Source: Mycobacteroides saopaulense (lineage in GTDB: Bacteria > Actinomycetota > Actinomycetes > Mycobacteriales > Mycobacteriaceae). From it: 64,000 nt of DNA. A program made the translations under genes and the position numbers. Each line of letters starts with the position of its first letter. Position 1 is the first letter of the stretch. Below the pieces are notes generated by a model. The model saw nothing but the letters and a program-made list of their open reading frames with translations. It was not told where the DNA came from and made no database searches. Positions 10,837-53,894 of this stretch are shown piece by piece. Location: assembly GCF_001456355.1 (NCBI RefSeq), contig NZ_CP010271.1, forward strand, positions 3,844,001 through 3,908,000, given 5' to 3'.

Positions 10837-10993
10837 GCCCCGATCATCACACACCCTTACACCGCGGCACCGGACAGTTCATGCCGATGCGCGATCGCAT
10901 TGCTCCCAACCTATTTGAGTTATCGGCGGTGCAGGCGCCGGTCTCACGACGATCGTGGCGGTGCAGGGAACCTTCGGAGTGATGCAGGGCTAC

Positions 10994-12373
10994 CTATGGC
11001 GCAGGTACTGAAACATCTGGGCTCCGATCGCCGTTAACGTCGCCTATCTCGACATGCTGATCACCTGACTGCCGATCCCGCACCGACAGGCACATCACCG
11101 CCGCGATGACGCAGAGCCCGGCGGCCAACCGGAACGCGGTGTCGTAACTGCCATGCTGATCGCGCAGCCACCCCGCACCGGCCGCCGCGACCGCCGCCCC
11201 GAGCTGATGCGAAGCGAACACCCATCCGAACACCACGGGCGTGTGCTCGCCAAAGTACTTGCGGCACAGCGCGATGGTCGGCGGCACGGTGGCCACCCAG
11301 TCCAGTCCGTAGAAGATGATGAATACCCATGTGGATGGTTCCGCTCGTGGAGACAGCAAGGCGGGCAACAACATCAGTGAGATCCCGCGCCCGAAGTAGT
11401 AGATGCCCAGCAGCAGGCGGGCATCTATCCGGTCGGTGAGCCACCCGGAGAACACCGTCCCGGCGACATCGAAGACTCCGATGAGCGCGAGCAGGCTCGC
11501 CGCCATGGTGGCGGGCATCCCGTGGTCGTGCGCCGCCGGAATGAAATGGGTGCCGATCAGTCCGTTGGTGGTCATACCGCAGATCGCGAAACTTCCCGCC
11601 AACAACCAGAAGACGGGCTGCCGCGAACCCATCACCAACCCGTCGAAGGCCGCCCGGAACCCACCCCGAACCACTGGAGCGCTCCCCGGTTCGTCGACGC
11701 CGGCACCGTAGGGACCAACTCCCTTATCCGCCGGCCGATTTCGCATGAAAAGCACCACCAGGGGAACCACTGCAAGCGCTGACGCCGCCACGATCACCGA
11801 TGCCCATCGCCACCCGCAGGCTCCGGTGACCACGGCCACCAAGGGCAGGAAGATCAGTTGGCCGGTGGCGCTGGCAGCAGTCAAGACACCCGTGACCAGT
11901 CCGCGGCGGGCGACGAACCACCTGGTCGCGACCGTGGCCACGAATCCCATGGAGATCGAACCGGTACCGACGCCCACCAGCACACCCCACAGCAGCAGCA
12001 GCTGCCAGGACGCGGTCATGAAGGCGCTCAGGAACGTGCCCGTGGCGATCAGCGTCAACGCCGCCGCCAGCACGGGCCGCACGCCGAACTTGTCCATCGA
12101 CGCGGCCGCGAACGGCGCAGTGAGCCCGAACAACGTCATGTTGATCGACATCGCCAGTCCGATGGTGCCGTGCGACCAGCCGAACTCGGCATGTAGCGGA
12201 TCCATCAGAACGCCGGGAACCGAGCGGAAAGCGGCCGCGGCCAATACCGCCACAAAGGCCACCGCCGCGACGATCCAACCGGGATGCGGTCCGCGGCGGG
12301 CGGGCGTTTCGGGCACCACATGCTGGGTCACCCGCCAAGGTTGACCGACGACGCCGACTCGCACAATTGGCAT
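10994..12373 (-). CDS. MFS transporter (oxalate/monocarboxylate-type)
   Basis: The protein has about 12 hydrophobic segments and MFS hallmarks: GLAMSINMTLFGLTAPFAAASMDKFGVRPV after TM2 (the DxxGxRx-like loop 2-3 motif) and SGWLTDRIDARLLLG in the second half. It resembles OFA/MCT-type carriers. The start is uncertain. The ATG at 12373 overlaps a perfect inverted repeat that probably is an operator, and a GTG at 12331 (VTQHVVPE) would leave the operator upstream. It is divergent from the GlxA-type regulator and probably regulated by it. Substrate unknown. Confidence 0.8.
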   Translation of the reverse strand: MPIVRVGVVGQPWRVTQHVVPETPARRGPHPGWIVAAVAFVAVLAAAAFRSVPGVLMDPLHAEFGWSHGTIGLAMSINMTLFGLTAPFAAASMDKFGVRPVLAAALTLIATGTFLSAFMTASWQLLLLWGVLVGVGTGSISMGFVATVATRWFVARRGLVTGVLTAASATGQLIFLPLVAVVTGACGWRWASVIVAASALAVVPLVVLFMRNRPADKGVGPYGAGVDEPGSAPVVRGGFRAAFDGLVMGSRQPVFWLLAGSFAICGMTTNGLIGTHFIPAAHDHGMPATMAASLLALIGVFDVAGTVFSGWLTDRIDARLLLGIYYFGRGISLMLLPALLSPRAEPSTWVFIIFYGLDWVATVPPTIALCRKYFGEHTPVVFGWVFASHQLGAAVAAAGAGWLRDQHGSYDTAFRLAAGLCVIAAVMCLSVRDRQSGDQHVEIGDVNGDRSPDVSVPAP

Positions 12374-12383
12374 AAATGCCAAT
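12366..12383. promoter_or_regulatory. Perfect inverted repeat between MFS gene and GlxA-type regulator
   Basis: ATTGGCAT-AA-ATGCCAAT is a perfect 8-base inverted repeat with a 2-base spacer. It lies 18 bases before the regulator's ATG and at the start of the divergent transporter. Its position suggests one operator serving both genes. Confidence 0.55.
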
Positions 12384-12401
12384 AGGTGTAAAGATCGTGC
12401 C

Positions 12402-13349
12402 ATGGCACACACCGTGGCCGTACTGATGCTGGAGCCGCTGATCGGTTTCGACGCGACCATCCCGTCACTGGCATTCGGCCAGGCCGGTGCCGACCGCTAT
12501 CGGGTCATCACCTGCGGATTGGCACACGCCCCGGTTCAGACCACCTCGGGATACACAATCACCCCGCAGGAGGGACCCGGCGCGCTGGCCCGAGCGGACA
12601 CCGTCATCATTCCTGGCACCCGCTACCCGCCCGCGCGGATGCGGGGTGAGCTGGCAGAGGATCTGCGCTCCGCTCTCGACACCATCCGACCGGGCACCCG
12701 CATCGTGTCCATCTGCACCGGCGCCTTCGTGCTGGGCGCCGCGGGCCTGCTCGACGGCCGTCGAGCCACCACTCATTGGCACATGGCCGACAGCTTTCGC
12801 ACGCTGTACCCGCGGGTCCTACTGGACGAGACCGTGCTGTTCGTCGACGACGGCGACATCCTGACCTCTGCGGGACTGGCTTCAGGAATCGACTTGTGCC
12901 TGCACATCATTCGGCAAGATCATGGCACCGTGCTGGCCAACGACGTGGCCCGGTATTGCGTGGTGCCGCCCTGGCGGGAAGGCGGCCAAGCCCAGTTCAT
13001 CGACCGTCCGCTTCCCGAATGTACCGGGGATTCAACGGCATCCGCCCGCCACTGGGCGATGGCGAACCTTACCGAACCGCTGACCGTGCAGCAGCTCGCC
13101 GAACGCTGCCGAATGAGCATGCGCACCTTCAACCGGCGCTTCCGCGACGAAACCGGCCTCTCCCCCGGTGACTGGGTTCGGCAGCAGCGTGTCGAATGCG
13201 CCAGGGCGCTTTTGGAATCACATGACCTCGCGGTGGACGAGGTGGCGCGACGATCCGGCCTCGGCTCGGCCGCCAATCTGCGACACCACCTGCGGCGTGG
13301 GCTTGGCATGAGCCCCACCCATTACCGGAAGACATTCCGGGGCAGCTAG
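12402..13349 (+). CDS. GlxA family transcriptional regulator (DJ-1/PfpI domain plus AraC HTH)
   Basis: The 315-residue protein has an N-terminal DJ-1/PfpI amidotransferase-like domain (about 1-190). The nucleophile-elbow sequence IVSICTGAFVLGAAGLLDG contains the Cys, followed by RRATTHWHMAD. A C-terminal AraC-type double helix-turn-helix follows (about 215-310: LAERCRMSMRTFNRRFRDETG and VDEVARRSGLGSAANLRHHLRR). Such proteins usually sense a small metabolite and activate a neighbouring operon; here the obvious neighbour is the divergent MFS gene. It is convergent with gap, eight bases apart. Confidence 0.9.
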   Translation: MAHTVAVLMLEPLIGFDATIPSLAFGQAGADRYRVITCGLAHAPVQTTSGYTITPQEGPGALARADTVIIPGTRYPPARMRGELAEDLRSALDTIRPGTRIVSICTGAFVLGAAGLLDGRRATTHWHMADSFRTLYPRVLLDETVLFVDDGDILTSAGLASGIDLCLHIIRQDHGTVLANDVARYCVVPPWREGGQAQFIDRPLPECTGDSTASARHWAMANLTEPLTVQQLAERCRMSMRTFNRRFRDETGLSPGDWVRQQRVECARALLESHDLAVDEVARRSGLGSAANLRHHLRRGLGMSPTHYRKTFRGS

Positions 13350-13357
13350 ATCGGCGA

Positions 13358-14155
13358 TCAGACGATGCCAACCCCGGTAAGTACCTGCCATATCCCGACC
13401 ACAGCGAAGAGAACCAGCAATACCAGCTGCCGATGGGCGAGAGCCCAGTTATGGATCGGTTCAAGCACCGCCTGGGTTCTCCCTGGGGCAATCACATAAC
13501 TGATCAACGCGATCTCGAAAACGGCGAGCATGGCGAAGACGAACACCACGGTGGCAATCACCTGTGTGCCGATCGCGGCCCCCGAACCCACGATGATGGT
13601 GTCCACCAGCAAGACCAGTGGCGGCGGCGGCATGTATCCGATTCCGAGCACCAGCGCCACCCACAAGGCGCCGTTCTCCCATGCGCCTTTGCCTCGGTGC
13701 AGAACACGCCGAAATACCGATGCGATAGCGGAAACGGCACCCTTGACTCGCCCCGCAGGACGGGCTTCGGCGGCCGGGGCCTCGGGATCCAGCACCAAGA
13801 CCGAGGAATCACCACTGGCCCCCGCCGCCACGGGCTCGCGCTGACGCGACCGAAGCCGCACCGCAATCCAGACCGCCACCACCACGCAGAGCACGCCGGT
13901 GCCCAGTTGAAGAGGCTTGACCGATGAGCCCGGGTCGGCGGTCGCAAGATTCTTGGCGAAGGACGCGAAACTCGGCACCATATGCAAGGCGAAAAGCGCA
14001 ACCACAAAGGACGGCACATTCACCATCAGCGCACCAACCCAGAACGCCAGCAAGTTCTGCACGGGCCGGGGCCGGGAAATCACCACCAGGATCAAACCGA
14101 GCAGCACCGGATTCAGTGACATCAGAAATGCCAACCCCAACAGTTCGCGCCACAT
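13358..14155 (-). CDS. gap: Gap, GPL addressing/translocation membrane protein
   Basis: The 265-residue protein has about six membrane segments: two near the N-terminus (LLGLAFLMSLNPVLLGLILVVI), one or two more by residue 110, then a cytoplasmic-looking linker (about 115-170, Arg/Ala/Pro-rich), and three at the C-terminus (YMPPPPLVLLVDTIIVG, VVFVFAMLAVFEIALISY, LVLLVLFAVVGIWQVL). Gap proteins are needed for GPL to reach the cell surface. The start at MWRELLG is preferred over an ATG twelve codons upstream because GGGTTGGGG lies just before it. It is 165 bases downstream of mps2 on the same strand, probably the last gene of the mbtH-mps1-mps2-gap transcript. Membrane topology is inferred from hydrophobicity by eye. 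Confidence 0.85.
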   Translation of the reverse strand: MWRELLGLAFLMSLNPVLLGLILVVISRPRPVQNLLAFWVGALMVNVPSFVVALFALHMVPSFASFAKNLATADPGSSVKPLQLGTGVLCVVVAVWIAVRLRSRQREPVAAGASGDSSVLVLDPEAPAAEARPAGRVKGAVSAIASVFRRVLHRGKGAWENGALWVALVLGIGYMPPPPLVLLVDTIIVGSGAAIGTQVIATVVFVFAMLAVFEIALISYVIAPGRTQAVLEPIHNWALAHRQLVLLVLFAVVGIWQVLTGVGIV

Positions 14156-14320
14156 AACCCCAACCCTACCCCGTTTGCTCGTGAATGGCATCTCCTGCCG
14201 AATTCACCCGAATTGCACTGGGCGCGTTAGATAGACAGATATCCATTCCGACAGGACATGACCCAATCGAATTAACCGTCACGGAACTACTTCGTCGGAG
14301 TTTCCGCTATTTTCTGCGCG

Positions 14321-17300
14321 CTAAAGCAATCCCTGCAATTGCAAGTCGCTCGCATACTTCGCGATGATCGGGGCCGATACTTGCGGAATGTCGTTTTCAG
14401 ATCCAATCTTCGCGCGGCGAACGGCCGCCTGGAAACGATCCGCCGGCGCCATCGGTCCACGCGAGGGTTCCGGCGGCTGACCATCCCAACCGTGATCCTG
14501 CAGGATCTTCAGCATCTGCAACACCGAACCCTGGCGCTGATGGTCCGGCAAGGCGTGCAGTCGGGACTCGAACTGCTCCACCCACTCGTCGAAGTCCTCG
14601 ATGCGCTCAATCGGGTGACCTGCATCGATCAACCAGTCGACGTACTCGTCGATTCCGATGCCATCGTCATGCGGATTCATCACGTGATAGGTCTCGAAAC
14701 CGGCCGAGCCCTCTCGTGACTCGGCGGCCTGACCTCCCAGCGTGGCGATCGCCTCGGCGACGAATTCCACGGGCAGCCCGTCGAAATGCGCACGCTGCCG
14801 ATTGCCGTCCTCGCCGAGCCGATAGACCGAATGCGGCGCGACACCCGTCGCAACAATGCTGAGCACCATGCGGGCAACGGTGTCCGAAGCGTTCACCTGC
14901 CCCGCGTAACTGGTGTCGACCATGATCATGCCCGAGCGAAACACCTTGACCGGCAAGCCGAGGTGCTCGTGGGCCTCTCGCAGGAGCACCTCTCCCGCCC
15001 ATTTGCTGTTGCCGTAACCGTTGGCGTAGCTGCCATCGGCGGGGCGGGTGGCACTGATGACGCGGATGTCGGCGTCCTCGAGGAATATCGACTTCTCGAT
15101 CTCACGCCCGACATCAGCCGTCGAAATGTAGGTGTAGGGCTTGACCTTTGACGTCACCGCGAATCGGATCAGCTCGGCCGTACCCACCACATTGGGCCCG
15201 AACAACTCGCTGTATGGCAACACGCTGTTGACCAAGGCCGCCGAGTCGACGATCAGGTCGACGGTATCGGCCAGCCGCTGCCAGGTCTCCTGCTCCAGCC
15301 CCAGGGCGGGTTCGGCCTTGTCCCCGGCGATCACCTGCAACCGGTCGGTGGCCAACGCCTCGTACACCCGAATAAGCTCCGGGTCTCCGCTGTCGAAGGT
15401 CTTGTCGAGACGGCGCCGCGCCTCTTCGTCGGACTTGGCCCGCACCAGGCAGATCAGCGTGCCGTCGACCTTTTCCAGTTCCTTGAGCCATTGCAGCACC
15501 AAGTAGCGGCCCAAGAATCCGGTCGCCCCGGTCAGCAGCACTGTCCGCACACCCTCATCGGCGCGCGGCAGCGTCGGGGCTGCCTTCAGCGTTTCCTCGT
15601 CGATGAACTTCTCCAAGGTGAGGTCGCTTGCCCGCACCACGGAAGCACCGCGGCCATGCACGGACGCGTAGGTGGGCCCGGCCGTCGCAGAGCCGTCCGC
15701 GCCGTCCAAATACACGCTCAGGCTTCGCACCGACGGTGCCTCGAACAGCGTTCTGACTGCCAGCTGAGCGTCGAAAGACGTGTTGATCGCCGCGACCACG
15801 CGCATCGCGGAGATCGAATCCCCGCCGAGGTCGAAGAACGAATCATCGGTGCCGACACGCTCAACGCCCAGCACCTGCGCATAGATGCCGGCCACCGTCT
15901 CCTCGACGGCGTTGGCGGGCGCACGGTAGCGGGCCGCATCGTCATACTCCGGTGCGGGAAGCGAACGCTTGTCGAGCTTGCCGTTGACCGTGAGCGGCAA
16001 GGCCTCCAGCCGCACCACCGCGGCCGGGACCATGTAGGGCGGCAGCCTCTTTGCCAGTGCGCTGCGCAGCTCGGCCACCTCACCGGTCCCGATGAAATAC
16101 CCGACTAGACGCTTGTCACCGGGGCGATCCTCGCGGGCGATCACCGCCGCCTGCTCCACCCCGTCAAGTTCGGCAAGAGCCGCCTGGATCTCCCCGAGCT
16201 CGATACGGAAGCCGCGAATCTTCACCTGCTCGTCGGCGCGGCCCAGATACTCCAGCTGACCGTTGGCACCCCAGCGCACCAGATCCCCGGTGCGATACAT
16301 CCGCGTCCCGGGCTCACCGAAGGGGCACGCGACGAACCGTGACGCGGTCAGTGCCTGGCGCTTCACATAGCCGAGGCCGACACCGAGTCCAGCCACATAC
16401 AGCTCGCCGACAACACCCGGTGGCACCGGCCGCATCCACCGGTCCAACACGAACAACGCGGCATCGGGCACCGGAACACCGATCGGCACCACACCCGAAC
16501 CGGCGATCAACTCACCGAACGTGGCATAGATCGTCGTCTCCGTCGGACCATAACCGTTGATCATCACGCGTCCGGGCGCCCACTTGTCCACCACTTCGGT
16601 GGGGCACGCTTCACCGGCGACGATCAGCGTCATGTTGTCCAGGCCCTCCGGCGACAACATGCCTACCGCCGACGGGGTTTGGAACAAGACGGTGACCTTT
16701 TCACGGATCAGCAACTCGCGGAAATCGTCGGGCGAGCGCACGACCGAATCCGGAATGATCACCAATCGGCCACCATGCAGCAGTGCACCGAAGATCTCCC
16801 ACACCGTGATGTCGAAGACCAGGGACCCTGCCTGCGTCCACACCTCGCCCGGCCCCGTGGGCATGTGCGTGAGCGGGAACTTGAGCGCTTGGGTCACGTT
16901 GCTGTGCGCGATGGCCACACCCTTGGGCACACCGGTCGTTCCCGACGTGTAAATCGTGTAGGCGACGTCGTCGGGCGCCGGAGTGAGCAATGGCGTATGA
17001 CCGTAGATGGCGCCGGTCGGGTCGTCGTCGGCGTCGTCGAACTGGACAACCGCCACCCCGGAGCCTTCGAATCGTGCACGCAGCTCGGCCGTCGTGACCG
17101 CCGCGATCGGCACGGCATCGGACAGCATGAACTCCAGCCGCGTGTCCGGTACCGAGGGGTCGATCGGCAGATAGGAGGCACCGGTCTTGAGAATCGCGAG
17201 AATCGCCACGATCGCTTCGTCGGAGCGTGGCATCAACAGTGCCACCGACTCACCCGGAGCCGCGCCGTAGACCGACAGCAGGTTCGCCAACCGATTGGCG

Positions 17301-20300
17301 GCCTCGTCGAGCTCGCCATACGTCGTCGAGCGACCGTCAAATGTCAGCGCGACCGCTTCGGGGGCTCTGTTCACCTGTTCGGCGAAAGCCTCCGGAATGG
17401 ACAACACCGGCTCCGCGTCCCGGGCCAAGACCTTGCGGTTACCCCAGCCGTCGAGCTGTTTGTGCTCAGCGGCCTCCAGGACATCAAGCGACGAAAGTCG
17501 TTGTCCGGCATCGGCAACCATGGAGACCAGTACCCGCTGGAACCGCTCGAACACGGCCTCGATGCCCTCCACATCGAACTTGTCGGTGTCGTATTCGATC
17601 CGGATGCCCAGCTCATGCCCCGGTAGCGCCATCACCGACAGCGGATAGTGGTTGTACTCGCGGGTGACGAACTCGGTGACGGCCAGTTCCTGTGCGCCCA
17701 TGAACGCGCTGGTGTCAATCGGGTAGCTCTCGTACAGGAAGAGGGTGTCGAACAGCTGCTCGTGGCCCGCGATGTGGTGAATCTCGTTGAGGGCCAGGTG
17801 TTCATGCTCGATAGTGTCGTTGTGAGCACTCTGCAACTGCCCCAAGAGCTCGGACACCGTGGTGGCCGCGGTGGCACGCGCACGCACCGGCACCGTGTTG
17901 ATGAGCAATCCCACGATCGAGTCCGATCCGGCAAGCTCTGCGGGCCGGCCCGACACCGCCGTCCCGAACGCGACGTCGTCCTGCCCGGTCACCACCATGA
18001 GCAGCTGCGCCCACGCCGCCTGCAGCACTGTGCTGATCGTGGTGTGCTGAGACCGCGCCAGGTCGGCAAGAGCCTGTGTGGTCTCGACCGAAACCCGATA
18101 GGATTCAACACCTCTGGCCCCTGGAGGTGCCGGCGGAGCGACGAGAGTGGGCGTGTCGAAACCGTCCAACACCTTGCCCCAGGCCGCACGTGCCGCATCA
18201 AGATCTTGGTTGACCAGCCAGCTGACGAAACTGCGATACGACGACGGCGCCGGGAGCCGGTGGCCGAAGTAGCTTGCGAAGATCTCCTGCAACAGGATCG
18301 GCAATGACCAGCCGTCGATCACCACGTGATGGAACGTCAGGACGAACCGGTGCTTGTTCCCCTCCGTGCGGATCAACGCCGCGCGCAGCGTGGGCCGATC
18401 GGCGAGGTCGCAGACCGCCGCCCGCTCGGCAGCGCAGAGATGCTGAATCTCCTCGTCGGGAGTCAGATCGTCACCCCGGAGGTCGAGGTATCGCCACGCG
18501 ATCACGGGGTCGGCCAGAATCACCTGTACCGGGTCACCGAACTGCGTGCAGAAGCGGGCCGCGAGGTTGGGATGCCGCCGGACCACGGAGTGAACCGCGT
18601 CGCGGAGTCGCAGCTGGTCGACAAGACCTGTCACCGTGATGTCGAGCTGCACCGCGTAGAAGTCGACTCCCTCCGAGTCACCGTCCAGCGCCCCCGCGGC
18701 GCGCGCGAAGGTGGTGTGGAAAAGCAGGCCTTCTTGGATGGGCGTCAGCGGCAGTACGTCGACGATCTTGTGCTGCTCGTGCAGCTCGTCGATCTGCTGC
18801 TGGCTCAGCCGCGCAGGTGCGATATCGGACGGGGTCAAACCGCCACCACCGCCGCGCACATACGCGCAGATCCCGGCGAGCGCCTCGAACCACAGCTGGC
18901 TCAGCCGCTGCACCTGGGGCTCGGTGACCGACGACGGCGCCCACGTCCAGCCGGCACGCAGATGTGCGCCGGACTCCTCGCCGAGACCGCCCTCCACGAT
19001 GCCGGCGTTGAGATCCACCGTGTACATCAGCGGCATGGACACCGCCGAAGCGACACCCGCCGAGGACAGGCTGTCCTCGTTGATCCGCCACAGGTCGTCG
19101 CTCAGAGCCGCGGCACCAGCGCCAAGGCGTCCCAGATAGTTGAATCCGATGGTCGGTTCCGGGCCGGACAGATCCACGTCCGAGTTCAGGTAACGCAGTA
19201 GGCCGTAGGTCAAGGGATCCGGGAGGGTGCGCAGTTGTTCCTTGGCTCCCTTGATGATCGGCCCCAGAGCCGCGGCCCCGCCGACGACCTCCTTCCAGGA
19301 GAGCCCTCCGACGCTCAGCGCCACCGGATACTTGGTGGTAAACCAGCCGACGGTGCGCGACAGGTCGACGTCGTCGGCCAGTTCCTCGTGACGTCCGTGA
19401 CCTTCGACGCCGATGGCGATCGACGCGGCGGTGGAGTCCAGGAATTCGTTCCAGGCCAATCCGAACGCGATCAACAGAATGTCTTGCACCCCAGCGTGAA
19501 ACGCCGCCGGGACCTCTCCCAGGAGTTCTCGGGTGGTCTCCGCGTCGAGTGACACCGACATCGTTCTGGCCGTGGCGTAGGTGTCCAGCTCGGGCAGGAC
19601 CGCCGGTAACGCCGCGGGAACCGCCGCCACCTCCCGCCAGGCGTCGGCTGTGGCCACCACGTCCGCCGAGCGCGCGTGCTCGTCGAGCAGCGTGGCCCAA
19701 CGGGCGAACGAGGTGCCACCTACCGGCAGCTCTACCGGCTGCCCGCCGTGGTGTTGCGCCCAGGCGATATTCAGGTCTTCCAACAGAATTCGCCACGAGA
19801 CACCGTCGACAGCCAGGTGATGGATCATCAGCGCAAGCTGTCGGGTGTCGGGGACCCACACCGCGCTCAGCTCGGCCCCCACCGCCGGGTTCAAACGAGA
19901 GCGGGCAGCCACCAGCTCCGCGTCGGACAAACTCTCGGCGACGCGCAGGCATTCACGCGCATCCACCGTGCCCGCCTCTGGCACCAGAAGCGACCACACT
20001 CCCGTATCGGAGGCGCCGTCCTTCTCGGCACGCAACCGCAGCGTGGCATGGCGGTCCAGCAGTGCCTGCAGCACGATGACGACATCGTCTTCGGTCACGC
20101 CCGCTGGAGCCTGCAGGACGATCGTCTGGTTGAACTGGTCGACAGGGCCCTGCACACCATGGAGCCAGTGGATGATCGGGGTGGCCAATACAGGGCCAAC
20201 GCCCTCGTCGACGACACCGGCCTGACCGTCCGAGAGAGTGGCCACCGCGGCCACTCCGCTTACGGTTTGCTCGACGAAGATGTCACGCGGTCGGCACAGC

Positions 20301-22048
20301 ACCCCGGCCGCCCGCGCACGCGACACCACCTGCATCGACAGGATGCTGTCGCCACCGAGATCGAAGAACGACTCGTCGACGCCCACCCTGTCTACCCCGA
20401 GGACCTGAGCATAGATATCGGCCAGGATCATCTCGACCTGTCCGGACGGTGCGCGGTACTCGGCACCGACACTGCGGTACTCGGGTGCGGGAAGAGACTT
20501 CTTGTCCAGCTTGCCGTTCACCGTCAACGGCAGCGTCTCCAGGACCACCACCGCCGCGGGAACCATGTATGCCGGAAGCCTCTCGGCCAGCGCGGTGCGC
20601 GCCTCGACCGGATCGGCGGTTCCCACGATGTATCCGACGAGGCGCTTGTCGCCGGGGCGGTCCTCGCGGGCGATCACCACCGCCTGCTCCACGCCCTCTA
20701 GGCGCGCCAGTGCCGCCTGGATCTCGCCGAGCTCGATGCGATATCCACGGATCTTCACCTGCTCGTCGGCTCGGCCCAGGTACTGCAGCTGCCCGTCCTC
20801 ACCCCACTGCACCAGATCGCCGGTGCGGTACATGCGTGACCCCGGGCCCCCGAATGGGCAGGCCAGGAAGCGCGATGCCGTCAAACCGGATCGGTGCGCG
20901 TAGCCGGGAGCCACGCCGTTGCCTGCCACGTACAGCTCACCGACCACGCCCTCGGGTGCCGGCCGCAGCCACTTGTCCAACACGAACAGCGCCGCTCCGG
21001 GCACAGGCGAACCGATGGGCGCCACATCCGAACCCGGCGTCAAAGGCCCACTCATCGCCGCATAGATGGTGGCTTCGGTCGGCCCGTAGGCGTTGATCAT
21101 CGTGCGCCCGCTCGCGGCCCATCGGTCCACGAGTTCTGTCGGGCAGGCTTCGCCGGCAACGATGAGGGTCGTCGACTCCAGCCGTTCCGGCGACAACATC
21201 CCTGCCGCCGAAGGGGTTTGGCACAGGACGCTGACCTTCTCGTTGATCAACAACTCGTGGAGATCATCCGGTGAAGACGCCACCGATTCGGGGACCACCA
21301 CCAAGCGACCGCCGTGCAGCAGTGCGCCCCAGATCTCCCACACCGATACGTCGAAGACCAACGAATGCCACTGCGACCAGACCTCGCCCGGTCCGGCGGG
21401 TAGATCGGCACGTACCGCGTCCACCAGCTGGGTGACATTGTGGTGAGTAACCGCAACCGCTTTGGGAACACCGGTGGTGCCCGAGGTATAGGTCATGTAC
21501 GCGAGATCATCGGGCTGTGGCACGGGCAGCGCAGAACTGGGCTGGCCGTCGATGAGGGGATCGTCGATTTCGGTCACCCGCACATCAAGCCCATCGAATC
21601 GCGAGCCCAAATCTGCCGTGGTCAGTACCGCCACCGGTTCCGCATCCGACACCATGAACCTGATGCGCTCGTCGGGGTGTGCCGGGTCGATGGGCAGATA
21701 CGCGGCCCCCGTCTTGAGTACCGCCAAGAGTCCGATGATCGCCTCACCCGATCGCGGAACTAGCAGCCCCACAACCTCTCCCGGGCCCGCACCGTTGCCC
21801 GCCAACAGATGTGCGATGCGGTTGGTGACCTGGTCCAGCTCGCGATAGGTCCAGGACCTGTCCCTGCACACCAGCGCAACGGTCTCGGGCGCGCGCTCCA
21901 CCTGGACTTCGAACAGCACCGGAATCGAGACGGGCTCGGCGGTGGGCTCGGTGAGCACCGCACGGTTACCCCATTCGTCGAGCCGGTCGTGATCGTCGTC
22001 GTCGAGAAGATCCATCGACAACAAAGTCCGGGTGGGATCGGCGCTCAT
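14321..22048 (-). CDS. mps2: GPL non-ribosomal peptide synthetase Mps2 (A-T-E-C-A-T-R)
   Basis: This 2575-residue synthetase holds the second half of the GPL assembly line. Domains in order: A (about 30-510, SGTTG near 186), T (FFDLGGDS, phosphopantetheine Ser568), E ([10 protein letters not shown] near 742), C (HHVVIDGWS near 1238), A (SGTTG near 1700), T (Ser2078), and a terminal thioester reductase R (about 2165-2560, [12 protein letters not shown]). Reading the specificity positions by alignment to GrsA gives D-V-W-C-I-A-A-I-Y-K and D-I-W-F-I-A-G-I-Y-K. By position these should be D-Ala (with E) and Ala, the latter reduced to L-alaninol by R. There is no thioesterase. The start overlaps the mps1 stop (ATGA), and module 3 is split between the two proteins. 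Confidence 0.95.
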
Positions 22049-39415: not shown

Positions 39416-39464
39416 CGCCTCTTACGCCTTTCGGGTATCGCGTTTCACGGGAGTCAGGACGCCG

Positions 39465-42538: not shown

Positions 42539-42702
42539 GCGCCTCCGCCACTTTTCGCTGGGAGCGTCATCGTATCGCCATCCCAGTCCCTAAACACGCT
42601 TTCCGGAATTTCCACACCAGGTTGGAAAAACATTGTCACAACTGATAATTCATGAGTACCGCGGATGGCCTGTCGCCAATCCACGATCAGCTGCCGGCCT
42701 GC

Positions 42703-43776
42703 TCAAAAACGATTCGGGCAGTCTTTGTCGATCCATTCGAGAAGTGCCTGCAGACCATCCTCCAGCGACCACTTCGGGCTCCAGGCGAGACGTTCGGTTG
42801 CCGGGTCGATATCGCAGCTTGCCGCGCGCACATCCCCGTCCCGAAACTTGCCGACGACAACGGGCTCGGGCGCCGCACAGATATCGGCGACCTTGCGGGC
42901 CAAGTCGTGAATGGTTGTCGCAGTGCCAGACCCGATATCAAGGGTGCGGCGCTCGACGGCAGGTGTGTGCACCGCCGCGAAGAGCGCATCGACAACATCG
43001 TCGATGAACACGAAATCACGGACTATCCGTCCGTCCTCGTACACCTCCAACGATTGTTTCTCGCGTGCCAACCGTGCGAAAAGCGTGACGATTCCGGTGT
43101 ACGAATTGGTGAGCGATTGACCGGGCCCGTAGACGTTCTGCAGACGCAGGACGCTCAGATTCGTGTCGTGAGCTGCGGCCCACGCTGCCAGCAAGTGTTC
43201 CTGGGCCAGCTTGGTGCCCGCATAGACATTGGTCGGGCGGGGCTCCGTACGACCCGCGCAGCTGGGCAGAGACGTCGCAGATTCACCGGCAGGCCCCCTC
43301 GGATCCCACTCGCCGGCAAGTAGCTGTGCGTGGCTACGCGGCCGCGGATAGAACACCTGTGCCCCGGACTGCCAGGCGCCTTCGCCATACACCGCACGCG
43401 ACGACGCGAGCACCAACTGGTCCGGCACCAGCCCCGAACGGCTCAGGGCATCAAGGAGCTGGGTGGTGCCGACCACGTTGACCGAGCCATGGCGCGTTGC
43501 CTCCGAAAGCGACTGCGCCGTACCCGTCTCCGCGGCCAGGTGGACGATCTGAGAGGGCTCGAACAGACGCAGTACCGCATCCCAGTCGGGCGCGTGGGTG
43601 ACGTCTCCGGTGAACAAGCGCACCGAGGACGGCAGGTCGATCTCACGTCCCCTGGCGTGTACCTGTGGGTGTAGGACGTCCATCACCGCGACGTCGTATC
43701 CCGCCTGCACGAGGCGGGACGACAGCGTGGATCCGATGAATCCTGCACCACCGGAAATGAGCACGGATTTCGACAA
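42703..43776 (-). CDS. Extended-SDR sugar-nucleotide epimerase, probable dTDP-L-rhamnose 4-epimerase
   Basis: The 357-residue extended SDR has the NAD motif VLISGGAGFIGSTL (residues 5-18) and the catalytic YxxxK in NVYAGTKLAQEHL. It also shows features I associate with dTDP-L-rhamnose 4-epimerases: DVLHPQVHARG after the first strand pair, YGEG, a loop rich in Pro/Arg with one Cys, NVYGPGQSLTNSYTGI, YEDGRIVRDFVFIDDV and FRDGDVRAASCDI. It lacks the AES-HVDRSI-type region of RmlB. The reaction dTDP-L-rhamnose to dTDP-6-deoxy-L-talose would supply the GPL 6-deoxytalose. It starts with TTG, with GGGAGG about nine bases before. Other 4-epimerases or reductases remain possible. Confidence 0.75.
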   Translation of the reverse strand: MSKSVLISGGAGFIGSTLSSRLVQAGYDVAVMDVLHPQVHARGREIDLPSSVRLFTGDVTHAPDWDAVLRLFEPSQIVHLAAETGTAQSLSEATRHGSVNVVGTTQLLDALSRSGLVPDQLVLASSRAVYGEGAWQSGAQVFYPRPRSHAQLLAGEWDPRGPAGESATSLPSCAGRTEPRPTNVYAGTKLAQEHLLAAWAAAHDTNLSVLRLQNVYGPGQSLTNSYTGIVTLFARLAREKQSLEVYEDGRIVRDFVFIDDVVDALFAAVHTPAVERRTLDIGSGTATTIHDLARKVADICAAPEPVVVGKFRDGDVRAASCDIDPATERLAWSPKWSLEDGLQALLEWIDKDCPNRF

Positions 43777-43916
43777 GGCCGACGCCTCCCGTTCTTTTCA
43801 GAGCAGCTAGGTGACCGGCACGCACCGGTAATGCGTTCCGGGTCAATGATATCGATGATGGCGGTTCCGTCGCACGAAGATCATCCGCTACAGGCAGCGG
43901 CCGGCGAGCAACCGAC

Positions 43917-45176
43917 CTATGCACGGGAGGCTCTCGTCTCCAGCAGATCGGCTGCTCTCCTGACACTCTCGTGCGGTTTGGACATGTGGGGGGCGATCGC
44001 GCGCGCCCGAGTGGCGCATTCCGGAGTGAGGATCTCGCGCAGATCCGAGACCAGGGAATCTCGGGTCGTGGTCGAAAAGCGTCGGGATGTACCCACTCTC
44101 ATACGCTTGAGCTGATTCCCCCAGAACGGCTGATCACCGACGGTCCACAGGATCAAGGTGGGTACGCCCGCACGCAAGCTGGCCGCTGTGGTGCCCGAAC
44201 CTCCGTGATGAACGATCGCTCGACTGACCGGAAAGACCGCGGCGTAGTTCACCACCCCGACAACTTTGACGTGATCGGAGATTCGCACGCCGCTGAAGTC
44301 AGTTGCACCGGCGCACACCAGCGCGCGCTCCCCCAGTTCCGCGCATGCCGAACTAATCATCTCGACGGTCTCGGCCGGAGATTCGACCGGAATGCTGCCC
44401 GAGGCAAAGCAGATGGGTGCCGGACCCGCGGCTATCCACGACATGACCTCGTCATCGGCCTCTGTCGTCAACTCCATGGTGAGAGCACCCACGAAGGGCC
44501 GCCGCTCACCGTATTTCGCCCATTCGTCGGCCAGTCCCTGGAAGCAGATGTCGTCATAGGCTTGAACTTCCAGCGAGTCACGCTCACCTATCCGCTGCGG
44601 AGAAGGGCTCGTCGCCTTGGGCAAGCCGAGCTCTCGCCGTTGCGCATCTTCCGCTCTCTTGGTCACACGCCAGGTCAGCCAGTCATAGGCGGTCATCGCC
44701 GTACGGGTCAGCGGCGCAGGTAAGGCCGGAAAAAGCTGACCATTAGGACGCCAGGGCATTGTGTGCAGGGCCACCAGCGGAATCCCGTAGAACTCGGCAA
44801 CATTGGCCGCCGGCTCTTCATAGCCCACGCTGGTGGACAGCAGATCCGCTCCCTCTGCCACCGACACAAGGGTCCTGCCCATTTCCGACCACTGCTCAGT
44901 CACCAGTTTCAATGCCTGACGACACAAGGCAGTCAGATCCTGGACCCGCCAAAAGTGACGGGTCCACGACGTCCACAAGTCACGGTACTCATCGAGCTGC
45001 GGCCCCACATGAATTCCGTAAGGCACCGCAGAAAGCCCGACCGATTCCGTGAAGCCGATCAAATCGGGCGGGACGGCCATGCGCACTTCATGGCCACGGC
45101 GTTGCAGCTCTCGACCAACAGCAACGGCAGGTTCGATATCGCCACGCGTGCCATAACTTGCCATGGCAAATTTCAT
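43917..45176 (-). CDS. gtf2: GT-B glycosyltransferase of GPL synthesis (Gtf2 by position)
   Basis: The 419-residue third paralogue starts MKFAMASYGTRGDIEPAVAVG and carries HHGGSGTTAASLRAGVPTLIL for the nucleotide-sugar site. All three enzymes share GLxxVPYG-like and GxPPxxFxxGSxPVESPAE-like blocks, so they arose by duplication. By position it corresponds to gtf2, which in characterised species puts rhamnose on the terminal alaninol. It precedes the epimerase gene by 140 bases on the same strand and is divergent from rmlA. The role is inferred from position. Confidence 0.85.
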   Translation of the reverse strand: MKFAMASYGTRGDIEPAVAVGRELQRRGHEVRMAVPPDLIGFTESVGLSAVPYGIHVGPQLDEYRDLWTSWTRHFWRVQDLTALCRQALKLVTEQWSEMGRTLVSVAEGADLLSTSVGYEEPAANVAEFYGIPLVALHTMPWRPNGQLFPALPAPLTRTAMTAYDWLTWRVTKRAEDAQRRELGLPKATSPSPQRIGERDSLEVQAYDDICFQGLADEWAKYGERRPFVGALTMELTTEADDEVMSWIAAGPAPICFASGSIPVESPAETVEMISSACAELGERALVCAGATDFSGVRISDHVKVVGVVNYAAVFPVSRAIVHHGGSGTTAASLRAGVPTLILWTVGDQPFWGNQLKRMRVGTSRRFSTTTRDSLVSDLREILTPECATRARAIAPHMSKPHESVRRAADLLETRASRA

Positions 45177-45660
45177 GACGTTCTCGACCTCCCCGAAATA
45201 TGTGCGTGCGTACTCGCAGAATGGCCGTCAGTGCTGCCGGTCATTATTACCGATCTGACGCGCTACGGATAGCCTCAACATAATGGGCGTACGCACGTCT
45301 CCAAATTCCACGACAAGCACGCAGCTATGGCCGAATGAATTCAATTTCACAGATTGCCACAGGTAAAACAACTACCCCGATTGGCAGCGGCAATGCGATA
45401 GCAGCGAGCCTCCGGCACTGCGAGTCTCGCGCTATCCCATCGCAAAACACACCCGCGCCGTACACTCCTGACGGACTTGTCCAGGTCCAGCGTTGCGCGA
45501 CGTACTCGCACCGCCGCCACCACCAACATTTGGTTCCACCGGCATCTGGCCTACATACGCGATAGGGTGGCCCATGTTGCGCCTAAGACAATGTAGAAAA
45601 GTCCCCGCCGCAACGTAACTCAACGAATCCTTCGTATTTGTCGTCGAGTAGGAGCGGACA
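45177..45660. other. Divergent intergenic region between gtf2 and rmlA
   Basis: These 484 bases hold no convincing gene. CGTGCGTAC near 45205-45213 has its inverted copy GTACGCACG near 45289-45297, about 85 bases apart and close to gtf2. A small CGAA-TCC-TTCG dyad lies near rmlA. Short ORFs on both strands overlap each other and lack ribosome-binding sites. Promoters for both genes must lie here, but I cannot place them reliably. Confidence 0.4.
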
Positions 45661-46527
45661 TTGCGCGGCATCATTCTCGCAGGCGGCTCGGGCACTCGTC
45701 TGCACCCGATAACGATGGGTGTGAGTAAGCAGCTGCTGCCGGTCTACGACAAACCGCTGGTCTACTACCCGTTGTCAACACTGATCATGGCCGGCGTCCG
45801 CGACATCCTGGTGATCACCACGCCCGCTGATGCTCCGGCATTCGAGCGCCTTCTCGGCGACGGCTCGGCATTCGGTATCAACCTGAGCTACGCCGTACAG
45901 CCCGAACCCGAGGGGCTGGCACAGGCATTCGTCATCGGGGCCGAGCACATCGGCACCGACACGGCCATGCTCGCGCTGGGTGACAACGTCTTCTACGGAC
46001 CCGGCCTGGGTACGAGTCTGCGCAGGTTCGAGAACATCGACGGTGGCGCGATTTTCGCGTACTGGGTAGCCAATCCATCGGCTTACGGTGTGGTCGAGTT
46101 CGACGCCGCCGGGGTTCCCCTGTCCCTGGAAGAAAAGCCCGCGTCCCCGAAGTCTCATTACGCGGTTCCTGGGTTGTACTTCTACGACAACGACGTCATC
46201 GAGATCGCGCGCTCGCTTCAGAAGTCCGCGCGTGGCGAATACGAGATAACGGAGATCAACCAGATCTACCTCGATCAGGGCCGACTCTCCGTCGAAGTCC
46301 TTCCGCGCGGAACGGCCTGGTTGGACACCGGTACCTTCGATTCGCTGCTGGATGCCAGCGATTACGTCCGCACCATCGAACGCCGTCAGGGTCTGAAAAT
46401 TGGCGTGCCGGAAGAAATTGCATGGCGCGCCGGTTTCATCAATGACGATCAACTTGCCGCCCGTGCCCAAAAGCTACTCAAATCTGGGTATGGAAGTTAC
46501 CTACTTCAGCTCTTGCAGCGGAAATAG
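45661..46527 (+). CDS. rmlA: Glucose-1-phosphate thymidylyltransferase
   Basis: The 288-residue enzyme makes dTDP-glucose, the first step of dTDP-rhamnose synthesis. The nucleotide motif [30 protein letters not shown] (residues 3-32) is complete. [29 protein letters not shown] and [17 protein letters not shown] are standard RmlA motifs. The start is a TTG, six bases behind TAGGAG. It is divergent from gtf2. RmlB, RmlC and RmlD are absent from the window, so this copy must rely on enzymes encoded elsewhere. It probably boosts dTDP-sugar supply for the GPL. Confidence 0.95.
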
Positions 46528-50066: not shown

Positions 50067-52945
50067 CAGTTCCTCTGCAGCACCGAGCGGACCAGGCGAG
50101 GTCCCCTCCATCCGTGCACCGCACCGCGCGGCCGGGGCGACACCTGCAGCGGCCACCAGAACCATCGGCCCAGAAGGGCGGCGATCGAGGGCGTCATGAA
50201 CGCGCGCACGATCAAGGTGTCGAACAACAGCCCCATGCCGATCGTGGTTCCCACCTGCCCGAGGGTGAGCAGGTCGCTGACGATCATGGATCCCATGGTG
50301 GCTGCGAAGACCAGGCCGGCGGCCGTCACCACCTTGCCGGTGCCGCCCATCGCCCGGATGATGCCGGTATTGAGTCCCGCACCGAGTTCTTCCTTCATGC
50401 GCGAGACCAGCAACAGGTTGTAGTCAGATCCCACCGCGAGCAGCACGATGACGGACATGGCCAGCACCACCCAGTTGATCTGGATTCCGAAAATGTGTTG
50501 CCACACAAGGACGGACAGGCCGAAGGAGGCACCCAGCGACAGCGCGACCGTGCCGACGATCACCAAGGCCGCGACCAGGCTCCGGGTCATCAACAGCATG
50601 ATGATGAAAATGAGGCACAGTGCCGCGACGCCTGCGATCAACAGATCGTATTTGGAACCCTCCACCAGCTCGCTGACACCGGCCGCCGTACCCGCCAGCG
50701 AGAGCTTGGCGTGCTCCAGCGGAGTTCCCTTGAGCGCTTCTTCCGCCGCGGTCTTGATCGGCTCCACCCGTGAAATGCCTTCGGGCGTCGCCGGGTCTCC
50801 CCGCTGGGATATCAGCATGCGTGAGGACTTGCCATCGGGCGACATGAAGATCTTCATGACGCGCTGGAAGTCCTTGTTCTTCAGGACATCCGGAGGCAGA
50901 TAGAAAGAGTCGTCGTTCTTCGAGGCGTCGAAGGCCTTGCCCATGGCCGTCGAGTTCTCGGTGGACTCATCCATTTGGGCGAAGATGCCCGACATCGTGC
51001 TGTGCATCGTCAGCATCGACTCGCGCGTGCTCTTCATGGTCTCGATCATGATCGGGAACTGTTCGAGCAGCTGCGGCATCAATCTGTCTAGCTCGTCGAG
51101 GTCGCCGACCAGCGTCTGCATCTTGTCGGTCACCTGGTCGACGCCGTCAAGCGCATCGAAGATCGAACGGATCGACCAGCAGATCGGGATGTCGAAGCAG
51201 TGCTTCTCCCAATAGAAGTAGTTGCGGATCGGCCGCCAGAAGTCTTCGAAATCCTCGATGTGGTCCCGGAGCGTCCGCATGTCCTGCTGGAGGTCCTTGG
51301 TGGTGCCGACCATACGGTGCGTGGTGTCCACCATCTGACTCATCAGTTCGGACATGCGCTGCATGAGGGCGATGGTCTTCGACATGTCGTCGGCCTGCTT
51401 GAGCATGTCGTCCATCCGCGCGCGCTGGAACGGCAAGCTCAAACGCTGGCTCGCGTTCGACATGCTCAGCATGAAGGGCACCGAGGAGTGTTCGATCTGT
51501 GTGCCCTCGGGCCGGGTGATGGACTGGACATTGGCGATGCCCGGCACCGCGAAGACAGCCTTGGCCAGCCTGTTCAACACCAGGAGGTCGGCCGAATTAC
51601 GCATGTCGTGATTGGCCTCGATCAACAAGATGTCCGGCGTAGACATCTTCGATTCCGGGAAATGCCGCGAGGCGGCGGTAAGCCCCTGAACCGCGGGAAT
51701 GTCTTGCGGGATGTACTTCGCATCGGTGTAGCTGGGGTTGTACCCGGGCAGCGTCAACAGTCCGATCAGCGCGATCGCCACGGTCGCGGCGAAGATCGGA
51801 CCGGGCCACCGCACGATCGCAGTACCGATGCGCCGCCATCTGCGGGTCGTCACCTGACGTTTGGGATCGAAGATCCCGAAGCGGCTGCCGACTGCGATGC
51901 ACGCGGGCACCAGGGTGAGCGCGACCGCCACCGCGACCAGGATGCCGACCGCGCCTGGGATACCCAGCGGCTTGAAGTACGGCAGGCGGGTGAAGTGCAG
52001 GCACGCGATCGCGCCGGCAATGGTCAGGCCCGATGCCAAGACCACCTTCGCCACACCCTTGTAGGTGGTGTAGTAAGCGGATTCGCGATCCTCGCCTGCT
52101 TGACGCGCTTCCTGATAGCGCCCCGCGAAGAAGATGCCGTAGTCGGTTCCCGCAGCGATACCCACGGATACCAGCAGATTGACGACGAACGTCGTCAGGC
52201 CGACGATCCCGTGCATGCCCAGGAACGCGACAAGTCCTCGCGCGACCTGCAGCTCGATGCCGACCGTGAACAGCAAGATGATGACGGTGATGAACGATCG
52301 GTAGAGCAGGAGCAGCATCAGGAAGATCACGCCGACGCTCACCAGGGTGATGAGAATGACCGTCCGGTTTCCACTCTCGGCCATGTCGGAGACAACGGCC
52401 GCCGGTCCCGTGACGTATGCCTTGACCCCCGGTGGCAGCCCCGGGGTTTCCTTCACGACCTTCTGAACGGCTTCCACCGATTCATTCGCGTCGGCCTGGC
52501 CAAAGCGGCCGGTGAGATTCAATTGCACATAAGCGGCTTTTCCGTCGGCACTCTGCGCAGCACCGGAGGTCAGCGGATCACCCCAGAAATCCTGGACATG
52601 CTGCACATGCTTCGGATCGTCTTTCAACTGACGGATGACGGCGTCGTAATACTTGTGCGCATCGTCGCCGAGGGTGTTCTCCCCCTCGAGCACGATCACC
52701 GCGACACTCTCGGAATTGGACTCCTGGAAAACCTTGCCCATCTGCGTCATCGCCTTGACGGACGGCGCATCCGGAGGGCTGAGTGAGACCGAATGCTCTC
52801 GCTCGACAATCTCCAGGGGCGGCACCTTCACGGTCAGCAAGACCGTGATCGCCAGCCAGCCCAGAATAATGAACACCGCGCCGCGGCGGATAATGGTTGC
52901 CATTACCGGCCGGTGCGATTGACCTTTGCCGTCGTCCGCGCTCAT
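50066..52945 (-). CDS. mmpL4a: MmpL family RND transporter (MmpL4a)
   Basis: The 959-residue paralogue of MmpL4b has the same layout: TM1 near residues 25-45, periplasmic domain 1, helices including [21 protein letters not shown], a second periplasmic domain with the identical [17 protein letters not shown] stretch, and helices with [21 protein letters not shown]. The start at MSADDGKGQ overlaps the mmpS4 stop (ATGA). Its stop overlaps mmpL4b, so mmpS4-mmpL4a-mmpL4b are translationally coupled. Disruption of this pair abolishes surface GPL and gives rough colonies in the abscessus group, as known from the literature. Confidence 0.93.
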
Positions 52946-53361
52946 GCGGCCTTCAGGAGGCACGAGGTAAACGCGTTGGTCTGGTTTGTCACCTTCTCGG
53001 ATTTGACCTCATCGTCCACGATGATGCGGCACCCGATACTGCGGCCGTCGCCCTGCGCCATGATGCTTCCCACCGCGGTGGTCTTGCCGATCTCGAATTT
53101 CACCGACCACGGAAGTGGCACTTTTTGAATGAACAGCGGATCGCCATTGACGTCGAAATAACTGATATCGGCAACGTTCCCCGGTGACCCGAAAACCTCA
53201 TAAGACATCTTCTTGGGGTCAAACGATTTAGAGTCACTGACATTTGTATCTGCGTAAGAAGGGCGCTTTTCCGAACCGAAAACGCCGTGGAGCCGCGACA
53301 CGGTAAATCCGCCGGCAGCAATTACCGCAAGCACCAGCAGTGGAATCCACAGACGCATCAA
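52942..53361 (-). CDS. mmpS4: MmpS accessory membrane protein (MmpS4)
   Basis: The protein of about 139 residues has one N-terminal TM segment ([18 protein letters not shown]) and a periplasmic domain with the MmpS signature [26 protein letters not shown] and [16 protein letters not shown] (one Cys pair with SCLLKAA). MmpS proteins help assemble or stabilise their MmpL partners. The start is unclear. TTG (53361) and ATG (53358) are poorly spaced from the only good ribosome-binding site AGGAGG, which sits six bases before an in-frame ATT four codons upstream of the TTG. An in-frame stop excludes anything much longer. Confidence 0.92.
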
Positions 53362-53894
53362 AAGCCGAAGAATCGGAACCCTCCTCGTCTATCTCCGCAT
53401 CCGGCACCATGCTCGGACATCCGCACCCAAATTGCAAAACGCGGAACACCTCAACGGTGCTCCCCGGCCGTTAAAGATTAGACCATGCATGAGAGCCGCG
53501 TATGTGCCCGTTGCACACCCGATATGGAATGAGTAGCACGCTATTTGGGATACAGGCGTGTACAGATTTACTGCACGGAAACACAGGCAACGATCGCGGG
53601 CGGTTATCCCAATTAGTACGAATGGGTGAACAGATGGCCAATCAGCAGCTGAGACCCCTACCCCTATGACCCCAGGGCCGAATGACCGGCCTCAGTGACG
53701 CCGGTCATAGCGAGAGGCAACTCCGCGGAGCATGTTCGCCGGTGAGCCTCGGTCGGGCGGGCCCAGAAAGCAAACCAGCTTGATCGCTCGGTGCCCTCCG
53801 GATCATCGGCGGCCCAGGCGACGATGATCCGGCCGGACCGAAACCTTGCCAAGACTGCGAAGGCGGCGTTCGCAAGGCGAGTACGCTGGTCAAC
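53362..53894. other. Divergent intergenic region between mmpS4 and ramB
   Basis: These 533 bases mark the right border of the GPL locus. I see no gene; minus-strand ORFs here overlap the ramB start and have no support. On the minus strand TAATCT near 53475 is a possible mmpS4 -10 without a good -35. GTGCAG-TAAAT-CTGTAC (near 53548-53564) is an imperfect dyad. Just before ramB, TTGCCAAG, CTGCGAAG and TTCGCAAG (53844-53876) form a cluster of similar elements; the last octamer also occurs upstream of aceA, suggesting RamB autoregulation. Confidence 0.4.

Follow-up and report, generated by a model that had tools for sequence, protein, structure and literature searches.

A 40-kilobase glycopeptidolipid gene set of the abscessus-chelonae group sits in a short interval between genes that are neighbours in other mycobacteria examined

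In M. abscessus and M. chelonae the glycopeptidolipid (GPL) locus was reported as split by Ripoll et al. 2007 (PMC1885439). It comprises a 19-gene cluster from mmpS4 to gap, the one considered here, set apart from the lipid-synthesis genes, whereas in M. smegmatis the same series is linked to sap, ecf and pks-fadD23 genes within one region of about 65 kb (PMC1885439). Rearrangement between species was already proposed in that study; its abstract and sections 6 and 8 name no flanking host genes, no insertion or empty site and no further sites in the genus. In M. abscessus ATCC 19977, aceA is MAB_4095c (PMC8262987) and the GPL locus is MAB_4097c-MAB_4117c (PMC11978893), so that their adjacency, two numbers apart, was already visible in the locus tags; the relevant passages of these two papers do not discuss it. 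A second GPL-like locus of M. abscessus, GL8P/GP8L, has related NRPS genes in the same genomes but a different product and chromosomal site (PMC11978893); it lies outside the ramB-site island considered here. Smooth M. abscessus becomes rough when GPL is lost or silenced (PMC11978893, PMC12455991), and only two GplR1 sites are reported in the GPL cluster, with further direct regulators expected (PMC12455991). The position of the block and any sharing of promoters therefore bear on GPL control. The present comparison fixes the entry site in the abscessus-chelonae group (hereafter the group) and reveals further sites in the genus.

The window is a 64-kb stretch of the Mycobacteroides saopaulense chromosome (NZ_CP010271.1). 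A preliminary description had placed aceA, fadB2, a thioesterase and umaA on its left and ramB with an Rv0464c-like gene on its right, and all of these coordinates hold. The left host flank includes a mycolic-acid methyltransferase gene identified by Pfam/NCBIfam family matches (309-1178, minus strand), which we take to be umaA-like, fadB2 for 3-hydroxybutyryl-CoA dehydrogenase (7362..8231, minus; NF005875, 516 bits), aceA for isocitrate lyase (8460..9752, minus; NF011645, 766 bits) and, as the last host gene, an acyl-ACP thioesterase (TE; 10036..10854, minus; PF01643), presumably Rv0466-like. On the right, ramB, the regulator of acetate metabolism (53895..55325, plus; equivalog NF038139, 866 bits against a cut-off of 700), is followed by a CMD-family (carboxymuconolactone-decarboxylase-like) gene (55322..55855, plus; PF02627). 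We take this to be the Rv0464c position; the gene adjoins ramB in six right edges of the group and in loci L098-L100 outside it. The supposed likeness of the left block to M. tuberculosis is only partial: fadB2 and the umaA-like gene, adjacent in L100, are parted in the window by a urea permease/DUF1989/urea-amidolyase-like set (1963-7149, plus) and a TetR gene (1252-1956, minus). The TE-aceA-fadB2 block ends at 10854 and ramB starts at 53895, with 43,040 bp between the start codons, most of it GPL block. Since six of six other group genomes read on both sides share this order, it is not an accident of assembly.

The block is recognized as a GPL locus by its complete gene series (gap, mps2, mps1, decoration genes, rmlA, mmpL4b, mmpL4a, mmpS4), from which a glycopeptidolipid product is predicted. 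Its conserved part begins with gap (SfLAP family; 13358..14191, minus; PF11139), which lies next to mps2 at other GPL sites as well. The peptide synthetase genes mps2 (14321..22048, minus) and mps1 (22045..32400, minus) were assigned by length and orthologues and named after Ripoll 2007. A relative of mps2, 68% identical, is encoded in the same genome at C1:3056236 and may belong to a GL8P/GP8L locus. Beyond mps1 lies an open frame holding the mbtH gene (32427..32777, minus), MbtH being recognized by eye in the translation. Pfam/NCBIfam scans of the decoration stretch (33900..46527, mixed strands) identified methyltransferases at 33900, 36123, 39465 and 40483 (minus), acyltransferases at 37026 and 41408 (minus), glycosyltransferases at 34858-36111 (plus), 38147 and 43917 (both minus), an epimerase at 42703 (minus) and rmlA at 45661-46527 (plus). 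Two minus-strand frames, 34762-35286 and 45775-46470, were rejected as genes, being antisense to the first glycosyltransferase and to rmlA, respectively; they served as markers in some of the between-genome comparisons, and statements about rmlA rest on other matches. The series closes with the MMPL transporter genes mmpL4b (47109-50165, minus) and mmpL4a (50066-52963, minus; both TIGR00833) and with mmpS4 (52942..53361, minus; PF05423), the right end of the conserved block.

Outside the group, TE and ramB are divergent neighbours with starts 54-156 bp apart in all 51 loci (49 genomes), which were taken as the best-scoring ramB or TE matches and thus form a non-random, minor part of the genus sample; the named loci L098-L100 are closed in three cases of three. 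Within the group, all 11 genomes read have gap after TE, 1.0-5.5 kb away, and in each of the seven with the right edge read mmpS4 faces ramB. The 40-kilobase GPL set of the group thus sits in a short interval whose bordering genes are neighbours in every other mycobacterium examined, and, as for a genomic island, the flanks adjoin each other in relatives without the insert there (51/51).

Outside the genus, 18 of 20 genomes gave a match to TE, with 41-48% identity. These relatives are not next to ramB; where rpoB was located, in four genomes, they lie within about 5-17 kb of it. For these reasons we did not consider them orthologues, abandoned TE-ramB adjacency as a comparison beyond the genus and took aceA as the outgroup marker instead. 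Twelve genomes from six other genera all have ramB divergent from aceA-fadB2, 0.5-6.6 kb away, and the 20 kb read contain no TE or GPL match in any of them. This favours insertion on the stem of the group, and the proposal that the divergent TE/ramB interval was the entry site is borne out.

Most likely, this was an old relocation of a block: an already assembled GPL block of some 40 kb was, in our estimation, quite probably inserted between TE and ramB on the abscessus-chelonae stem, this being one of its several sites. We infer the direction (insertion), the timing (group stem) and the movement in one piece. The block, from gap to mmpS4 and including the mmpS4 promoter, would have originated in another part of the same chromosome or in a relative and entered the divergent region of about 0.1 kb. 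The ramB promoter with its operator would have been left whole on the right, while the TE side would have been rebuilt, with later gain and loss of small genes. A different history, in which GPL lay between TE and ramB in the genus ancestor and was cleanly excised or moved out on the branch of the other mycobacteria, seems improbable. The all-codon rpoB tree links the group with the outgroups (0.994) and the protein tree does likewise (0.918). This agrees with insertion, but in these two of three rpoB codings a single excision amounts to one step too; moreover, the GPL proteins of the group make up a separate clade when concatenated (1.000). However, given outgroups with divergent ramB and aceA and without GPL, excision requires that the block was first gained and later lost, with TE rejoined to the intact ramB promoter in all 49 genomes read. 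An ancestral GPL locus next to ramB, with loss in other lineages, had been raised as an alternative at the outset and is made unlikely, if not strictly impossible, by the outgroups.

Several observations weigh against the insertion model. Should the group be sister to the remaining mycobacteria, insertion and excision would be equally costly within the genus. In the rpoB tree from first and second codon positions, the outgroups do not come next to the group. Outside the group, mps1 was read near-whole in G291 only, being skipped or touched at its ends elsewhere. At the site itself, one junction is mapped to bases, about 240 bp on the right are unassigned, and no target-site duplication was seen at the block ends among exact words.

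That one junction is the ramB side. A profile of 52 closed-site sequences matches the window at 53828-53914 (E 4.5e-17) and all seven right edges of the group at E 1.4e-13 or better; the ramB promoter (53828..53894, plus) is thus kept from the closed site. On the block side, the region upstream of mmpS4 (53362..53586) is common to GPL loci at other sites over about 105-225 nt, the shared DNA being found in 8 of 11 non-group GPL loci at E below 0.01. The stretch in between (53587..53827) was assigned to neither GPL DNA nor ramB promoter and is patchily conserved in the group. A TE-side intergenic profile, based on 45 of the 52 closed-site sequences (the rest were too short), reached at best 2.8 bits in the group. 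Matches on two of eight left sides (window, 15.0 bits; G581, 13.8 bits) include TE coding bases and were dismissed as a promoter remnant. Since the TE-side DNA of the group is unlike that of closed sites, only the ramB junction could be mapped to bases; the anticipated base-to-base closing of the ends is seen there, with the promoter intact in 7/7, and not on the TE side. Direct repeats had been suggested at about 10.85 and 53.6 kb. The longest exact direct or inverted word shared by 10855-11000 and 53361-53894 is 8 nt, which is also the length that 500 shuffles most often gave, so no exact repeat exceeds chance. The 64-kb window contains no tRNA gene, and no integrase or transposase was detected among those window genes, other than mps1 and mps2, that were sent to Pfam/NCBIfam. 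Within this coverage the ramB site shows no integrase, tRNA or exact direct repeat of the kind that marks an integrative mobile element.

Between TE and gap lies a variable left margin (10855..13357), which differs among group members. In the window it contains an MFS gene (10994-12460, minus) and an AraC/DJ-1 (GlxA-like) gene (12402-13349, plus), both assigned by family match. This pair, initially counted as part of the island, is intact, partial or missing across the group and belongs to the margin rather than to the GPL block. Two group genomes have a TROVE-type gene there, and L092 has two additional methyltransferase-like genes. Such variation, together with decoration genes that differ among GPL loci, is what one would expect if the locus had grown between TE and ramB gene by gene, but the core series and the DNA upstream of mmpS4 recur at other chromosomal sites. 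For the core, growth in place is accordingly very unlikely; the left margin may have grown in this way.

The decoration half has a G+C content of 0.606, compared with 0.638-0.639 in the flanks. Taken with the disagreement of trees on the nearest GPL neighbour (G469 for mmpS4, 0.802; site-A species for the concatenation, 0.967), this could point to recent horizontal transfer of the block into the group ancestor from another GPL-bearing mycobacterium. Yet seven of eight GPL loci elsewhere are also low in G+C relative to their flanks, so the lowered value goes with the GPL genes and was ruled out as a sign of foreign origin. Nor does any GPL tree nest the group inside another GPL clade with strong support, and we regard recent transfer as unlikely.

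The relocation reading also draws on the other sites of the block, which is not tied to ramB. The series gap-mps2 ... mmpL4/mmpS4 recurs at other sites in 12 non-group genomes, with the mmpS4 end read in 11. The mmpS4 edge is missing in G575 and the ramB edge in G517. Using gene matches above 33% identity and 300 bp only, and grouping sites at ≥50% identity, we distinguished at least four other chromosomal contexts in the genus (A-D). Single gene-family matches link sites E (G398) and F (G463) to each other or to site A, and therefore only A-D were counted as clearly distinct. Two contexts, fhaA/tRNA-Leu and acyl-CoA-dehydrogenase, are reciprocal filled/empty sites, with rmlA present at one of the emptied sites; such pairs allow the movement of a large biosynthetic block to be studied. 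At site B, tRNA-Leu is at the mmpS4 side in G497, and of the 11 fhaA loci fetched, that of G632 alone is accompanied by the gap-side flank genes, G322 having one 64% match. At site D (matches above 45% only), three of seven genomes fetched are closed, G639 holds 11 kb, and G638, G322 and G469 are without the other flank genes. For site A the empty-site test failed, since in the 10 genomes searched from outside this site the relatives of its cobalamin-type gene reach no more than 52-54% identity.

RamB/PrpR-type operator words were identified by comparison with the M. tuberculosis icl1 promoter palindrome (PMC3420887). A paired word lies upstream of aceA (9924..9938, plus), and the retained ramB promoter contains another pair (53847-53861) as well as a palindrome, TGCGAA-N7-TTCGCA (53856-53874). 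In the group, such a pair stands 160-172 nt ahead of aceA (8 of 8 genomes) and about 48 nt ahead of ramB (7 of 7), and these words would be bound by RamB. RamB acts in trans, and it would still reach both operators, so that control of aceA need not have changed. The preliminary notion that insertion cut RamB off from its target is thereby corrected: the two are parted on the map, but the operator words are kept and no cis effect is visible. On the other side of the junction, mmpS4 faces ramB across 533 bp. It is conceivable, though doubtful, that the re-sited core captured a regulator there, export through mmpS4-mmpL4a-mmpL4b answering RamB or PrpR (acetate/propionate) via a TTGCAAA word. This word lies 71 nt from mmpS4 in the window and 71-74 nt upstream across the group; within 200 nt of mmpS4 it is present in 7/7 group genomes and in 0/11 other GPL loci, two of the latter being read over 177 and 109 nt only.

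The genome is a single contig of 4.65 Mb, and the window covers its bases 3844001-3908000. The gene for an Rv0466-like acyl-ACP thioesterase (TE), aceA and fadB2 run leftwards from 10854 on the minus strand, while ramB starts at 53895 on the plus strand and is followed by a CMD-family gene. The interval between the TE and ramB start codons (43,040 bp) holds, in order, an MFS/GlxA-like pair, gap, mps2, mps1, mbtH, decoration genes, rmlA, mmpL4b, mmpL4a and mmpS4, which is the layout that the preliminary description had proposed. The family matches were computed here, and the names of the glycopeptidolipid (GPL) genes partly follow Ripoll 2007.

The same arrangement was found in the other genomes read from the Mycobacterium abscessus-chelonae group. 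Six genomes (G604, G538, G581, G555, G474 and G470) have the gene order and orientation of the window on both sides, and the left edges of three loci (L092, L095, L097) match it; the sequence of G517 stops within mps1. Overall, gap follows TE at a distance of 1.0-5.5 kb in 11/11 group genomes, mmpS4 faces ramB in 7/7, and none of the eight group TE loci has ramB within 1.5 kb of TE. Published M. abscessus locus tags, MAB_4095c for aceA (PMC8262987) and MAB_4097c-MAB_4117c for the GPL locus (PMC11978893), are consistent with this proximity.

Outside the group, TE and ramB stand side by side in divergent orientation, with 54-156 bp between their starts, in all 51 loci read (49 distinct genomes), which are best-scoring matches rather than a random draw (L003-L031 retrieved via ramB, L040-L061 via TE). 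The site is closed as well in three non-group loci from Mycolicibacillus trivialis, Mycobacterium sp. 1274756.6 and Mycolicibacterium palauense. Two of the closed genomes, G291 and G386, carry their own GPL locus at another place. The divergent TE/ramB gap, claimed earlier as the entry point, is closed in the non-group loci read and filled in the group genomes read. In all 12 genomes read from six other genera of the family, ramB and aceA-fadB2 point away from each other across 0.5 to 6.6 kb, and the 20 kb read in each contains no TE or GPL match. Therefore, the ramB/aceA divergence appears to predate the genus, and first TE and later the GPL genes appear to have come into this gap, which seems to be a recurrent place of gene gain. 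The all-codon rpoB tree (0.994) and the rpoB protein tree (0.918) join the group to the outgroups; the tree of first and second codon positions does not.

The two junctions differ in how well they can be recognized. A profile built from 52 closed-site sequences matches window positions 53828-53914 (E 4.5e-17) and the ramB side of 7/7 group genomes (E 1.4e-13 or better), showing that the ramB promoter has stayed whole. On the left, the profile match (10791-10891, E 5e-4) also covers TE coding bases and is present in only 2/8 left sides; the TE-side intergenic part alone gave nothing recognisable (best 2.8 bits). The expectation that the ends close up base-to-base is borne out at ramB only. The DNA upstream of mmpS4 has counterparts in GPL loci located elsewhere, in 8/11 at E below 0.01 (best match, E 9.3e-23 across 225 nt); two more reach E 0.015 and 0.021, and G291 gives no match. 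The GPL DNA thus extends to about 53586. The next ~240 bp (53587-53827), between the mmpS4 and ramB promoters, are assigned neither to the GPL block nor to the ramB promoter; they include stretches conserved in seven group genomes and might contain another regulatory site or a small RNA. A test for direct repeats at the island ends had been proposed; the longest common exact word is 8 nt, the same as in shuffles. There are no tRNA genes in the window, and no integrase or transposase among its genes scanned for families.

The left margin is variable. The window, G538, G581, G555 and G470 carry the MFS/GlxA pair intact; in G474, G517 and G604 it is reduced to a remnant, and all 12 gap sides read at other GPL sites lack it (G463 has a GlxA relative, 44%, on the mmpS4 side). 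The pair thus does not belong to the GPL block itself. A 532-aa gene lies beside TE in G604 (L102:3079-4677) and G581 (L108:3146-4744); it is of TROVE/Ro60 type by Pfam in the former and by visual likeness in the latter, where an inverted copy of its start lies at 5386-5838. The left margin of L092 has two additional methyltransferase-like genes.

Twelve of the non-group genomes read carry the series gap, mps2 ... mmpL4, mmpS4 with varying decoration genes (the mmpS4 end was not reached in G575, and mps1 was read almost completely in G291 only). From the flanking genes (identified by Pfam in one genome per site), we distinguish site A (G638, G409, G291; cobalamin-type genes, P450, TetR), site B (G386, G497, G639; fhaA, PP2C phosphatase), site C (G469, G575; ROK, P-type ATPase) and site D (G546, G632; acyl-CoA dehydrogenase, beta-lactamase-like); the sites in G398 and G463 are probably separate. 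Sites B and D form a reciprocal filled/empty pair. In G632 a 2.2-kb stretch with a tRNA-Leu and no GPL block separates the B flanks; in G497, G386 and G463 the block is likewise missing between the D flanks, which are within about 1.4-4 kb of each other. G639 has 11 kb at site D with no GPL matches above 45%, and three further genomes are without the other D flank. In G632, G546 and G417 (L246, L287, L288), tRNA-Leu and the B flank gene have an rmlA between them that shares 85-86% identity with GPL RmlA of the window; none of the 10 other fhaA loci read has such a gene. GPL genes of G632 and G546 are at site D; the mps2 relative of G417 is on a contig other than that of its rmlA/fhaA site. Most simply, the ancestor of G632 and G546 would have lost the block from site B while rmlA stayed behind, although a separate rmlA insertion at the fhaA site is possible. 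In G513, G382 and G558, fhaA lies 35-38 kb from an mps2 match on the same contig, as at site B. Away from its GPL locus, G638 has an mmpS4-mmpL4a-mmpL4b-like trio (L266:3073-9246, 56-66% identical) near the site D acyl-CoA dehydrogenase.

A split GPL locus has been reported and a rearrangement proposed (Ripoll 2007, PMC1885439); a search by title and abstract start, with subscription literature mostly outside its scope, found no publication on the insertion site or the other GPL sites. In the unrooted tree of five concatenated GPL proteins (G581 and G632 each lacking one), the group forms one clade (1.000) beside site-A species (0.967). The mmpS4 tree places G469 beside the group (0.802), and the gap and rmt trees give the group no supported neighbour. 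In the mps2 tree with NRPS relatives, the group's mps2 is next to its members' own second-locus-type relatives (0.915). With the root uncertain, these trees fit the relocation of a long-resident block better than its recent import. G581 (L108-L110) points to some later exchange within the block, since its gap, mps2 and decoration genes are 68-84% identical (best matches) to those of the window and three methyltransferase genes have no match in its GPL locus, whereas its aceA and ramB are 98-99% identical. The mps2 match of G470 (L118:7344-15069) comes as two pieces that overlap, which means that the synthetase frame of this genome is either broken or misread.

PMC3420887 describes RamB of M. 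tuberculosis as a repressor of icl1 and of its own gene, with PrpR binding to these promoters too, and places the icl1 palindrome 175 bp ahead of the start codon. We searched for a paired word (TGCNAR, 1-4 nt, TGCNAR). It occurs ~48 nt before ramB in 7/7 group genomes and 50/52 closed sites; at aceA, 8/8 group genomes have it 160-172 nt away from the start. The word is weak by itself (four in the real sequence versus a shuffled mean of 1.7); the evidence is its constant position across genomes. RamB had been described as parted from aceA, which is true of the map but has no visible consequence in cis: as a diffusible regulator with both putative operators kept, it has not lost aceA as a predicted target. 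In the group, the mmpS4 promoter faces ramB over 533 bp, and 7/7 genomes have a TTGCAAA word at a distance of 71-74 nt from mmpS4. The word is found within 200 nt of mmpS4 in 0/11 other GPL loci (two read for 177 and 109 nt only), and at 239 nt in G469. It sits inside a larger conserved block, so that conservation alone does not imply that RamB binds it, and we consider it improbable that the insertion brought mmpS4 under new control by RamB or PrpR through this word. RamB has no occurrence in the main text of PMC12455991.

In the left flank, a TetR gene and a urea permease/DUF1989/urea-amidolyase-like set (1252-7149) separate fadB2 from an umaA-like gene. As these two are neighbours in the non-group locus L100, the set looks like a second insertion near the GPL one. 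The right flank includes a GNAT/SCP2 acetyltransferase gene (60244-61491) whose domain make-up is Eis-like.
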